A DNA stretch of 64,000 nucleotides from Haloterrigena turkmenica DSM 5511 (GCF_000025325.1 NC_013743.1:558001-622000), one strand, 5' to 3'; numbered from the stretch's first letter, positions 39,989 through 44,847 are shown. The notes: generated by a model not told the origin, from the sequence alone. A program made the numbers and translations.

Positions 39989-40717
39989 CTAGAGCCGGGT
40001 CGCAGCCTCGAGCGAGATGTCGATCGCACGACCGACGTTGTTCTTCGCTTTCTCCGGCAGTTCGTCGTCCTCGGTGTCGGTGCCCTTCTGGGTGCCCTCA
40101 ACGAGGTTGCCGTCGACGGTACAGATCGCGCCGGCGCGCAGGCCCTTGCGGCGAGCCAGCGAGAAGATCGCGGCGGCTTCCATCTCGACGGCGAGGAGAC
40201 CGGCGGCCTCCCAGTCGACGACGTGCTCGTCGGTCTCCGCGTAGTAGGCGTCGTCGGAGACGATCGGGCCGACGTGGACGTCCTCGCCGTTCGCTTCGGC
40301 CGAGTCGACCAGCGCCGACAGCACGTCGTAGTCCGGCACGGCGGGGTATTCGGCGGCCTCGTACCGCTTTGACGTTCCCTCCTCTTTCGCGGCGCCGGTC
40401 GCGACGACCATGTCGCCGATCTCGATACCCGACTGGAGAGCGCCGGTCGTGCCGACGCGGATGATCGTCTCGACGCCGACGTTGGCCAGTTCCTCGACGG
40501 CGATCGCCGCCGACGGACAGCCGATACCGGTCGAGCAGATCGTCAGCTCCTGTCCCTCGTAGGTCGCGTTGACGACCTTGTACTCGCGATTCTGGGCGAC
40601 GGTTTCGGATTCGTCGCAGTGGTCGGCGATGCGATCGACGCGACCGGGATCGCCCGGTACGAGCACGCGATCGGTCAGGTCGCCGTCGTCGACCAACAGA
40701 TGTGGCTGCGTTGCCAT
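39989..40717 (-). CDS. Nucleoside phosphorylase (uridine phosphorylase-like)
   Basis: Phosphorolysis of a nucleoside to base and ribose-1-phosphate. 242 residues of the PNP/UDP family: VLVPGDPGRVDRIADH near 18-33, ICSTGIGCPSAAIAVEEL, IRVGTTGALQ and the nucleoside-site motif LAVEMEAAAIFSLA. Annotation style suggests uridine phosphorylase, but haloarchaeal relatives include guanosine phosphorylase. It heads away from the permease gene and lies beside kinase and isomerase genes that could use ribose-1-phosphate. Confidence 0.9.
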   Translation of the reverse strand: MATQPHLLVDDGDLTDRVLVPGDPGRVDRIADHCDESETVAQNREYKVVNATYEGQELTICSTGIGCPSAAIAVEELANVGVETIIRVGTTGALQSGIEIGDMVVATGAAKEEGTSKRYEAAEYPAVPDYDVLSALVDSAEANGEDVHVGPIVSDDAYYAETDEHVVDWEAAGLLAVEMEAAAIFSLARRKGLRAGAICTVDGNLVEGTQKGTDTEDDELPEKAKNNVGRAIDISLEAATRL

Positions 40718-40862
40718 ACCCGTCGATTCCAGTGGCGGTGAGAAAAAAGATTCGAGGACGGGTCCCGATCGTCCGTCGGTTCGGCGACCTGCGACCGTCC
40801 CCCGTCCCCACCCCACCGCCGAGTGTGACCGGCCGCGGGGTGTGTTCGACCCGGCCGTTCAG

Positions 40863-41165
40863 TCAGCAGTCAGGGGAGACCTCCACCCGTTCGGGCGTGA
40901 CCGTCACCGTCGCATTCTCGACGCTGAATTCGACGGTTCCGTCGGCCCGACTCGCCCCTCGGTGCGTGTCCGCAAAGAGGGAGTCGAGTGCGTCCGGGTT
41001 GATGTAGTCGTATAGTCGGGTGTTGGTGGAACCGATATCGTCGTCGAAGTACTGCGCTAGCGCGGTTGCAGTGGCTATACTCGGCGGTTCGTTCGCGTCT
41101 CGCTCGTATTGAATGCGGCGTTTAAACTCGCATCCAGAGGACTCTCTGATCCTTCGTTCCGTCAT
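40863..41165 (-). CDS. HalOD1 output-domain protein
   Basis: 100 residues with the HalOD1 pattern: SIATATALAQYFDDDIGSTN, LYDYINPDALDSLFAD, then strands GTVEFSVENATVTVT. The basic N-terminus (ESSGCEFKRRIQYERD) is longer than usual. Located between the nucleoside phosphorylase and the PfkB kinase on the same strand, it could regulate this locus, though that is only suggested by position. Confidence 0.8.
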   Translation of the reverse strand: MTERRIRESSGCEFKRRIQYERDANEPPSIATATALAQYFDDDIGSTNTRLYDYINPDALDSLFADTHRGASRADGTVEFSVENATVTVTPERVEVSPDC

Positions 41166-41286
41166 GTCTCTCCGTCACGTCTCCGTGACCGTCTAGCTGA
41201 GTGAGCAACGTCTCCGCCCATATACTTACCGTCAGACAACACGGGGTGAAAACCGCTCGCCGGCGGCCGGATCGTGTGGTCTCGAG

Positions 41287-42174
41287 TCATCCCGCTCGCT
41301 CTTCCAGAAACCGTTCGACCTCGGACGCCGTCGGCGCGCTGCGGGCGCCCTCCCGACTCGCCGTCAGCGCGCCGCAGGCGTTCGCGTACTCGAGGGCGTC
41401 CTCGATCGACGCGCCCTCGAGTCGGCTCGTGAGAAAGCCCGCCGCAAAGGAGTCGCCGGCACCGGCCGTGTCGACCGAGTCGACGTCGAACCCGGGATGT
41501 GCGTAGCTGTCGTCGGGAGTCCGGATCTCTGCGCCGTCGCCGCCGGACGTGATCGCGACGATCCGATCGGTCGGCTCAGAATCGACGCCGGCCGCGTCGA
41601 CCAGCGCCGCGGCTTCGTGCTCGGTGACGAACAGAATGTCGGCCGCGGCGACGGTCTCGTCGTACGTGCGGTCGCCGAACCGGCGACCGGGGTCGAAACT
41701 GACGGTGACGTCGGCCGCCGCGGCGATTGAAGCGATCCGCGCCGCGGTCTCCGGGCGCTGGCTCGTGAGGTGGACGTGATCGGCCGCCCGAACCCGATCA
41801 GCGTCGATGTCCGCCGGCCGAACGGCCTCGTTGACGCCGTCGTTGCCCAGGATCGAGACCGCACCGTCGTCGTCGACGAGCAGGTACTTGACCGCCGTCT
41901 CGGCGCCCTCGACGACGCGGATCCCCGACAGCGAGACGCCGGCCTCCTCGAGGCCGCGCCTGGCCAGCAGGCCGTTGTCGTCGTCGCCGACGCTGCCGAT
42001 CAACCCGGCGTCGACCTCGAGGCCGGCGAGCGCGGCGGCGACGTTGGCGGCGCTGCCGCCGCCGGACTGGCGCTGTGAGCGGATCGTCGCCTCGCCGTCG
42101 GCGGCGGGGAGTCGGTCGACGCGCAGCGTCACGTCCCAGTTGACGTGACCGGCGGTGAGTACGGTGGGTGGCAT
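41287..42174 (-). CDS. PfkB-family carbohydrate kinase, candidate ribose-1-phosphate kinase
   Basis: A 295-residue PfkB/ribokinase-type kinase. Signature 1 is GGGSAANVAAALAGL near 38-52 and signature 2 is DTAGAGDSFAAGFL near 242-255, with the catalytic Asp in GAGD. It follows a DUF63 membrane gene by 38 bases. Close neighbours are a nucleoside phosphorylase and ribose-1,5-bisphosphate isomerase. In halophilic archaea an ATP-dependent ribose-1-phosphate kinase makes the isomerase substrate, so that role is proposed from context. Adenosine or sugar kinase activity is the alternative. Confidence 0.88.
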   Translation of the reverse strand: MPPTVLTAGHVNWDVTLRVDRLPAADGEATIRSQRQSGGGSAANVAAALAGLEVDAGLIGSVGDDDNGLLARRGLEEAGVSLSGIRVVEGAETAVKYLLVDDDGAVSILGNDGVNEAVRPADIDADRVRAADHVHLTSQRPETAARIASIAAAADVTVSFDPGRRFGDRTYDETVAAADILFVTEHEAAALVDAAGVDSEPTDRIVAITSGGDGAEIRTPDDSYAHPGFDVDSVDTAGAGDSFAAGFLTSRLEGASIEDALEYANACGALTASREGARSAPTASEVERFLEERAG

Positions 42175-42212
42175 TCGATACGACCGGGAAGAAGGCGCCG
42201 TCGGAAAAAAAT

Positions 42213-43034
42213 CTAGGTGGCGATGAAGAGCAAGACGTTGTGGACGCCGGGGCCGAGCCCGACCGCGGCGATCCCGGAGAGGACGATCCGCGCCTGCTGG
42301 GGCGCGTCCTCGACGTACTCCTTGAACAGTCCGAGGATCACCAGCGCCAGCGCGGCCTTCACCAGGACGAACAGCCAGCCGGCGCCGACGTACTCGGCGA
42401 TCGGCAGTGACCCGCCGGCCTCGAGGAGCAGCGCCGACAGGGGGACCGACTCCTCGACGCCGATGACGTCGTAGCCGATGGCCGTCGAGACGCCGTCCAA
42501 GGTGTGCCCGAAGACGACCAGCGCGCCGGTGTAACTCGTCGTCTTCGCGACGTCGGTAAACCACAGGCTCAGCGCGACCCACGCGATCGCGGTGACGATC
42601 CCGGCGGCGATGACGGCGATGACCGGCCAGAAGAGGTTGAACGTCTCTTCGGCCCAACTCACGTTGAGGATGATCGACGCGAAGACGGCGAAAAAGGCGG
42701 TCCCGGCGATACCGAAGAACCGCGGAATCGTCGGCTGGAGCCCCCCGGCGTACAGGAAGATCGCGACGATCCAAGCGGCGCCCGCGACGGCCGCGGCGAC
42801 CAGATAGACGGTCGGCGTCGCGAACAGCGTCTCGACGTTCTCCGGATAGGCGCCGAGTTGATAGAGGACGTGGAGGGCCGAGCCGAACATCATCCACGGC
42901 GCGAACGCCAGCACGGTCCGATCGGTTACCGGCGGCTCGAGAACCCACAGCAATGCGACGATCCCCGCCAGTATCACCAGCAGCGGGACGAGGAGGTACC
43001 ACGGTGGGAGCACGAACCCCTCGGGTAATACCAT
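42213..43034 (-). CDS. DUF63 membrane protein
   Basis: 273 residues with about eight membrane helices, starting LPPWYLLVPLLVILAGIVAL. Motifs of the family are APWMMFGSALHVLYQLGAYP, the GHTLDGVSTAIGYDVIG loop with a conserved His and Asp, and the C-terminal GLGPGVHNVLLF. DUF63 is a conserved archaeal family without assigned function. ATG 43034 is preferred to TTG 43061. Gene order with PfkB and the isomerase hints at a transporter or membrane enzyme for nucleoside or pentose metabolism. Confidence 0.85.
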   Translation of the reverse strand: MVLPEGFVLPPWYLLVPLLVILAGIVALLWVLEPPVTDRTVLAFAPWMMFGSALHVLYQLGAYPENVETLFATPTVYLVAAAVAGAAWIVAIFLYAGGLQPTIPRFFGIAGTAFFAVFASIILNVSWAEETFNLFWPVIAVIAAGIVTAIAWVALSLWFTDVAKTTSYTGALVVFGHTLDGVSTAIGYDVIGVEESVPLSALLLEAGGSLPIAEYVGAGWLFVLVKAALALVILGLFKEYVEDAPQQARIVLSGIAAVGLGPGVHNVLLFIAT

Positions 43035-43077
43035 ATCCGTACTCCCACACACCAGCGACAAACACTTTCCGATTGCT

Positions 43078-43101
43078 AACTATTCACGATAGTGAATAGT
43101 T
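43078..43101. promoter_or_regulatory. Perfect palindromic operator candidate upstream of DUF63-pfkB
   Basis: AACTATTCAC-GATA-GTGAATAGTT: 10-base arms, 4-base spacer, AT-rich against a GC-rich background. It lies 44 bases before the DUF63 start and 54 bases beyond the isomerase stop. The position suits an activator or repressor site for the DUF63-pfkB transcript; it could also act as a 3' hairpin for the isomerase gene. Confidence 0.55.
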
Positions 43102-43154
43102 TCCGTCGCTGTAACGTTCGGTGAGCCATCCCGCGGCGCTATGCCGGTGATTTC

Positions 43155-44138
43155 CTACAGCTCCCAGGGTTCGTCGACCGTCTCTCCGAACAGCTCCCGC
43201 ATCAGCGTGACGACGGTTTCCGGTGGGAACTGGCCGTGTTCGGTGACGATCGCGTCGACGTACCGCGGCGGGGTGACGTCGAAGGCGGGATTTTCGACGG
43301 TCAGTCCGTCGTCGGCGCCGTCGGCGGTGTCGGTGATCGCGGCCCGCTCGTCGTCGTCGAGCACCTCCCGCTCGTCGCGGCGTTCGATCTCGACGGTGTG
43401 GCCCGTCATAGTATCGGGGTGGAGTTTGATCGTCTGGGCGGCGACGGTCACCGGCACGCCGCGCTCGCGGGCGATGACCGCCAGTCCGCTGGTGCCGATC
43501 TTGTTGATCACGCTCCCGTCGGCCGCGATGCTGTCGGCCCCGACCAGGACGTGATCCGCCTGGTCGAGGTAGCGACGGGCCGCCCCGTCGACGATCACCG
43601 TCACCGGCACGTCCCACTCGCGTAACTGTCGGGCCGTGATGTGGCCCTGCAGCCTGGGCCGAGTCTCCTTGACGATCGCCTCGATCTCGGTGCCGTCCTC
43701 GACGGCGGCCTCGAGACAGGCCAGCGCGTCCGTCGAGTGGCAGTGGGTCATCACGACGTCGCCGTCGCGCAACCGGTTCGCGCCGACCGATCCCAGTTTC
43801 GACTGCGCCTGCGCCAGATCGCGCTGGAACTCCTCGGCGCGAGCGATAGTCGAGGCGCGCAGTTCCGCGACGGTCTCGCCGTCCATCCCGGCGAGGACGT
43901 ACCGGAGCGCGTTGGGCAGGCTCACCGCCGTCGGGCGGGTCTCGTAGAGCGTCTTCGCGGCCGCTCGCAGTTGCCGCTCGAACGCGTCGGGCCGCTCCGC
44001 GTCGGATCGCTCGGCCTGGATCGCCAGCGCCTCGGCCGCCGCGTCGGCGATCGTCGCGGCCCCGCGGATCTCCATCGCGGCGATCTCGTCGGCGGTCGTC
44101 ACGACGGCCGGCGCGACGTCGGGTCCACGGTCGTCCAT
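43155..44138 (-). CDS. Ribose-1,5-bisphosphate isomerase (eIF-2B-like)
   Basis: Converts ribose-1,5-bisphosphate to ribulose-1,5-bisphosphate. 327 residues of the eIF2B-alpha/R15P isomerase family: the catalytic Cys in [31 protein letters not shown], and the catalytic Asp in [20 protein letters not shown]. Haloarchaea use it in nucleoside ribose breakdown without Rubisco. ATG 44138 fits the TATA-like CACTTTTGCC about 30 bases upstream. It is divergent from deoC across 73 bases. Confidence 0.9.
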
Positions 44139-44211
44139 GCCGTCACGTTGCGCGCCGGACGGCAAAAGTGATCGGGCGGGGTTTTTGCCCGTCGGGCGAT
44201 TCCCTCCCCGT

Positions 44212-44847
44212 ATGGACCGCAGCGAACTCGCCCCGCTGATCGATCACACCGTGCTCGGCCCCGAGACGTCGATCGCCGATGTCCGCCGCGTTCTCGACGA
44301 GGCCCGGGAGTACGGCATGAACGCCTGTGTCCCGCCCTACGCCGTCGAGACGGCCGCCGACTACGCGCCCGAGGTGACCCTCGCGACGGTCGTCGGCTTC
44401 CCCCACGGCCAACACGCCGCCGCGGCGAAGCGACGGGAGGGCGTTCTCGCCTGGAAGGCCGGCGCCGACGAACTCGACGTCGTGCTCAACGTCGGCCGGC
44501 TGAAGGCCGGCGAGGACGACGTCGTCCGGGCCGAACTCGCGGAGATCACGGCCGCGGTACCGATCCCCGTCAAGGTGATCATCGAGACGGCTCTCCTGAC
44601 CGACGAGGAGAAACACCGCGCCTGCGAGGCCGCGGACGCGGCCGACGCGGCGATGGTGAAGACGTCTACCGGCTTTTCCGAGGCCGGTGCGACCGTCGCT
44701 GACGTCGAACTCATGCGCGAGTACCTCCCCGTCAAGGCCAGCGGCGGCGTCGGCAGCTACGACGAGGCGATGGCGATGCTCGCGGCCGGCGCCGAGCGGA
44801 TCGGCGCCTCGAGCGGCGTCGAGATTCTCGAGGGCGCGCCGGAGTAG
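44212..44847 (+). CDS. deoC: Deoxyribose-phosphate aldolase
   Basis: Cleaves 2-deoxyribose-5-phosphate to glyceraldehyde-3-phosphate and acetaldehyde. The 211-residue class I aldolase has the catalytic Asp in [11 protein letters not shown], the Lys of the first motif [10 protein letters not shown], and the Schiff-base Lys in [13 protein letters not shown]. The TATA-like GGGTTTTTGCC is spaced about 28 bases before the ATG. Sitting back-to-back with ribose-1,5-bisphosphate isomerase, it supplies the deoxynucleoside branch of nucleoside salvage as carbon. Confidence 0.95.

Follow-up and report, generated by a model that had tools for sequence, protein, structure and literature searches.

A DUF63 paralogue as a candidate membrane component of haloarchaeal nucleoside salvage, examined from the ribose degradation cluster of Haloterrigena turkmenica

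The window analysed here is a stretch of 64,000 nucleotides from Haloterrigena turkmenica DSM 5511 (GCF_000025325.1 NC_013743.1:558001-622000). The subject is a DUF63-family membrane protein (PF01889), encoded within a six-gene nucleoside-ribose cluster at positions 39989-44847. An earlier note, made from the sequence alone, had suggested this protein as a possible transporter, and a HalOD1 protein as a possible regulator, for the haloarchaeal non-carboxylating pentose bisphosphate pathway, although neither is part of the described scheme. Comparison across 97 haloarchaeal genomes shows a different set of associations. The partners of the DUF63 protein, hereafter DUF63-B, are the nucleoside phosphorylase and the deoxyribose-phosphate aldolase DeoC, while the PfkB ribose-1-phosphate kinase and the ribose-1,5-bisphosphate (R15P) isomerase are optional members of the neighbourhood. 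As judged from these sequence comparisons, the proposal for DUF63 would change from a pathway-specific protein to a nucleoside-salvage candidate found throughout the haloarchaea. We tentatively regard DUF63-B as a candidate for the membrane step of that salvage, most simply uptake.

DUF63-B was defined with a profile of proteins related to the DUF63 protein in the window, which itself passes the Pfam gathering score of 25 for the family with 72.6 bits. By the Pfam model, almost every one of the 97 haloarchaeal genomes contains at least two DUF63 matches, and the profile retrieves exactly one strong full-length match in each genome (97/97; 241-422 bits, with the next match at 138.5 bits at most). 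In a phylum-wide sample of 120 genomes, DUF63 is matched in 113, and the non-haloarchaeal genomes among these show one copy. The tree resolves DUF63-B as a single clade (support 100/100, stem 2.09), apart from both the haloarchaeal DUF63-A proteins and the copies that occur singly in other archaea. The residues His177, Asp180, Lys226, Gly259 and Pro262 are common to all three groups, as is the membrane topology. Conversely, DUF63-B is set apart by its long-stemmed clade, by its different gene neighbours and by the replacement of Arg55, Glu58, Asp59, Arg265 and Arg269, which are conserved in other DUF63 proteins. The single DUF63 gene of other archaea (loci L134-L153) often adjoins genes for glycerol-1-phosphate dehydrogenase, SpoIIM, UPF0179 or prolyl-tRNA synthetase, neighbours that may hint at an ancestral role, and DUF63-A adjoins an inositol monophosphatase gene in several genomes. 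Partial extra copies of DUF63-B, covering the C-terminal half, were also observed off the main locus (G060:C2:6950-7432, G060:C4:6950-7432, G044:C15:15687-16118 and G068:C1:2518172-2518615).

The universal presence of DUF63-B bears directly on the possibility that its role is confined to the kinase-isomerase pathway. The kinase is found in 77 of the 97 genomes and the isomerase in 63. DUF63-B is present in 20 genomes that lack the kinase and in 34 that lack the isomerase, so that there is no specific co-occurrence with either enzyme. The earlier note had made its suggestion depend in part on co-occurrence of DUF63 with the isomerase in other genomes, and a pathway-specific DUF63 is rejected on this ground. 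The two enzymes moreover travel together at a distance from DUF63-B in 23 genomes, and in 19 neither is present. A confined role would be consistent with the local arrangement, as 30/97 genomes have isomerase, DUF63-B and kinase side by side, 48/97 have DUF63-B and kinase adjacent on the same strand, and many Natrialbaceae loci carry a HalOD1 gene at the corresponding position; yet the H. turkmenica genome contains 59 HalOD1 matches. With the distribution as it is, we consider such a restricted role very unlikely.

The gene order is steadier for the other two enzymes. Within 5.5 kb of DUF63-B, the phosphorylase is found in 69 genomes and deoC in 66, followed by a K+ channel gene (49), the kinase (48), an HPP-Usp gene (42) and the isomerase (31). 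Orientation is invariant: the phosphorylase lies downstream and co-directional in 69/69 cases, the kinase likewise in 48/48, and deoC, when counted within 6 kb (68/97 genomes), is upstream and divergent in 68/68. The same gene order recurs in 80 named loci, and 22 genomes retain DUF63-B between deoC and the phosphorylase with no kinase or isomerase gene in the vicinity. The nucleoside-salvage neighbourhood thereby takes the form of a divergent deoC and, reading in the opposite direction, an optional isomerase gene, DUF63-B, an optional kinase gene and, further on, the phosphorylase gene. Two additional genes were noticed in this setting. In 20/97 genomes, the gene for a small membrane protein without a Pfam match (L036:7030-7608, minus strand, and relatives) separates the phosphorylase from DUF63-B or from the kinase, and in Haloferax marinum a gene between DUF63-B and the kinase (L118:8958-9743, plus strand) is a candidate TrmB-like helix-turn-helix regulator, judging by the start of its sequence.

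In the window, the neighbourhood comprises the following features.

39989-40717, minus strand: nucleoside phosphorylase of guanosine phosphorylase / Urdpase1 type, presumed Htur_0567 (PF01048, 161 bits; ATG at 40717)
40863-41165, minus strand: stand-alone HalOD1 protein, presumed Htur_0568 (PF18545, 66 bits)
41287-42174, minus strand: PfkB ribose-1-phosphate kinase, Htur_0569 by locus-tag order (NF053626 equivalog, 455 bits, cut-off 330)
42213-43034, minus strand: DUF63-B membrane protein, 273 amino acids, eight long helices, presumed Htur_0570 (PF01889, 72.6 bits)
43059-43071, minus strand: conserved promoter-like block CGGAAAGTGTTTG upstream of DUF63-B (motif in 66/80 relatives)
43079-43100, no strand assigned: perfect 9+4+9 palindrome ACTATTCACTATCGTGAATAGT, not conserved (sole perfect site in the genome)
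43155-44138, minus strand: R15P isomerase, presumed Htur_0571 (TIGR00511, 448 bits, cut-off 314; activity published, PMC9700705)
44212-44847, plus strand: deoC, deoxyribose-phosphate aldolase, divergent (TIGR00126, 196 bits, cut-off 117)

All six genes named in the earlier note are thus present, as confirmed by the Pfam and NCBIfam matches and by the open reading frames. Transcription on the minus strand runs from the isomerase (from 44138) through DUF63, the kinase and HalOD1 to the phosphorylase. The upstream region of DUF63-B contains a CGGAA-N-TT block, in most cases some 40 nt ahead of the gene, which is found in 66 of 80 relatives; 200 control draws averaged 1 such match and never exceeded 4. 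The block also occurs at loci with an upstream isomerase gene on the same strand, an observation suggesting that transcription can begin at DUF63-B itself. The adjacent 22-nt palindrome, of which the genome has no other perfect copy, was examined as a conserved operator and rejected in this capacity, since it is missing from the sister species H. salina (L053), whose DUF63-B is 96% identical.

The AlphaFold2 model of DUF63-B is of high confidence (predicted local distance difference test, pLDDT, 93.8; predicted template modelling score, pTM, 0.89) and shows eight long helices. No fold match in the PDB with E below 0.4 was obtained with Foldseek, and a sequence profile gave no PDB match at E up to 1. 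The density of Lys and Arg is 0.126 in loops 1-2, 3-4, 5-6 and 7-8 and 0.027 on the opposite side; this roughly fivefold enrichment is seen in DUF63-B and its paralogues alike. By the positive-inside rule, both ends of DUF63-B are therefore predicted to be outside. The invariant or nearly invariant residues His177, Asp180, Thr184, Asp189, Glu195, Lys226 and Asn266 are found in outer helix halves or in loops on the predicted outside. Their common location would be compatible with an outward-facing membrane enzyme or receptor, active for example in surface nucleotide processing or nucleoside sensing, and not a carrier. As these searches gave no fold or sequence likeness to any known membrane enzyme or receptor, this alternative appears improbable. 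The charged residues lost in DUF63-B (two Arg, Glu-Asp, His) would fit a shift from an anionic to a neutral ligand.

In our preferred reading, the eight-helix DUF63-B, with its conserved polar residues facing outward, would serve the salvage of nucleosides or deoxynucleosides at its membrane step, most likely as a permease that supplies nucleosides or bases to the phosphorylase. A membrane step of salvage is our best guess because DUF63-B is steadily linked to phosphorylase and deoC, because it appears to lead the transcript, and because two transporter families are absent: neither Bmp (PF02608) nor CNT (PF07662) nucleoside transporters were found in the H. turkmenica genome, where other nucleoside transporter families were not searched. 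A more far-reaching version, in which DUF63-B would be the first of a new permease family for nucleosides or nucleobases with a fold that the PDB lacks, is somewhat doubtful. In that version, a membrane protein present in most archaea of the phylum would have been duplicated in the haloarchaeal ancestor and would have lost its charged site in the process, and DUF63-B would provide the first step that haloarchaeal nucleoside salvage still lacks.

Several observations weigh against a function in salvage. DUF63-B is kept near none of the four enzymes in 16/97 genomes, mostly from one genus-level group (g16), and at two such detached loci its upstream neighbours resemble a UspA protein and a DNA methylase, as judged from the sequence starts only. 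The K+ channel and HPP-Usp genes, which are unrelated, are also retained nearby in many genomes, and the linkage is thus in part a matter of inherited gene order. Moreover, the model and profile searches described above returned no likeness to a known or solved transporter, and the residues conserved throughout DUF63 may point to an ancestral function that has nothing to do with nucleosides. It is accordingly quite possible that DUF63-B has retained a general function in the membrane or envelope, perhaps akin to the function of the lone DUF63 protein in other archaea, and that its proximity to phosphorylase and deoC reflects an old conserved gene order. The breadth of the family in the phylum, the different neighbours of the single copies outside the haloarchaea and the presence of DUF63-B in every haloarchaeal genome are in line with this explanation, which stands close behind a role in salvage on account of the unrelated genes kept nearby and the genomes in which DUF63-B stands alone. 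Still, phosphorylase and deoC are kept near DUF63-B more often than the K+ channel and HPP-Usp genes are, the block has shifted relative to its flanking genes in the family of the window yet remained intact, and DUF63-B is without residues that its paralogues retain. A part in nucleoside salvage is for these reasons retained as the preferred, if tentative, assignment.

The enzymes of the cluster almost certainly belong to the published haloarchaeal non-carboxylating pentose bisphosphate pathway, and the enzyme part of the cluster is already known in this very organism, as Sato et al. 2022 (PMC9700705) covers Htur_0567, Htur_0569 and Htur_0571. These authors worked with Haloterrigena turkmenica, showed that purified Htur_0571 converts R15P to ribulose-1,5-bisphosphate (RuBP), and gave Htur_0569 as the kinase homologue and Htur_0567 as the phosphorylase homologue. 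From the locus-tag spacing in that paper, HalOD1 is expected to be Htur_0568 and DUF63 Htur_0570. The fit to the pathway claimed in the earlier note holds for the kinase and the isomerase, which pass their cut-offs and, in the case of the isomerase, have been assayed from this strain. It is not supported for deoC, which has 0 mentions in the main text of PMC9700705; DUF63, HalOD1 and transport are likewise not mentioned there.

In the cluster, the phosphorylase would release ribose-1-phosphate, the PfkB kinase would convert this to R15P and the isomerase would form RuBP, after which a phosphatase and an aldolase encoded elsewhere would complete the pathway. Both of the latter, for which the earlier note had proposed a search of the genome, were found by equivalog matches as an overlapping gene pair elsewhere on the chromosome (about C1:2857129-2858474): the RuBP phosphatase (NF053830) with 399 bits against a cut-off of 330, and the ribulose-1-phosphate aldolase (NF053831) with 374 against 300. 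The correspondence with the published system thus includes the organism, the genes by locus-tag order and the phosphatase-aldolase pair. It differs in that the published glycolaldehyde reductase has no equivalog in the H. turkmenica genome (NF053832, best match 84 bits, cut-off 550), so that another enzyme may perform the last step, and in that DUF63, HalOD1 and deoC are not taken up in the text of that paper. The Thermococcus pentose bisphosphate pathway has the phosphorylase, ribose-1-phosphate kinase and R15P isomerase steps in common (PMC9700705) but proceeds through Rubisco, whereas the published haloarchaeal route employs RuBP phosphatase and aldolase. The kinase in the window matches the ATP-dependent haloarchaeal equivalog with 455 bits, versus 120 for the ADP-dependent one of Thermococcales.

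As for the individual gene calls, the phosphorylase is clearly a member of the PNP/UDP family, and in family and position it agrees with the guanosine phosphorylase (Urdpase1) of the published gene cluster. Its best NCBIfam match is uridine phosphorylase with 217 bits (cut-off 280), and as it stays below every equivalog cut-off, guanosine as its substrate is taken from the published relative. DUF63 and the kinase gene, described in the earlier note as joined, are two separate genes with a gap of 38 bp. A 592-codon open reading frame (41287-43065) in the kinase frame extends back over DUF63, which is read in a different frame, and this may be the source of that impression. A HalOD1 gene follows DUF63-B at a distance of 6 kb or less in 25/97 genomes, and the one in the window is one among the many matches in the genome; 49 stand-alone HalOD1 copies have been counted in this strain (PMC5847659). 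Given this partial conservation and the number of matches, a specific regulatory role is unproven, and HalOD1 as the regulator of the cluster is not supported.

In summary, the enzyme cluster adds little, being a published case in a published organism, and the useful part of the analysis is the reassignment of DUF63, a family that appeared once in the literature searched, in a single table line. DUF63-B is universal in the sampled haloarchaea, forms a separate clade with no relative of solved structure, and is linked to phosphorylase and deoC through gene order. If the proposed role is true, DUF63-B would supply the missing membrane step of nucleoside salvage and offer a starting point for understanding a membrane protein that is widespread among archaea.

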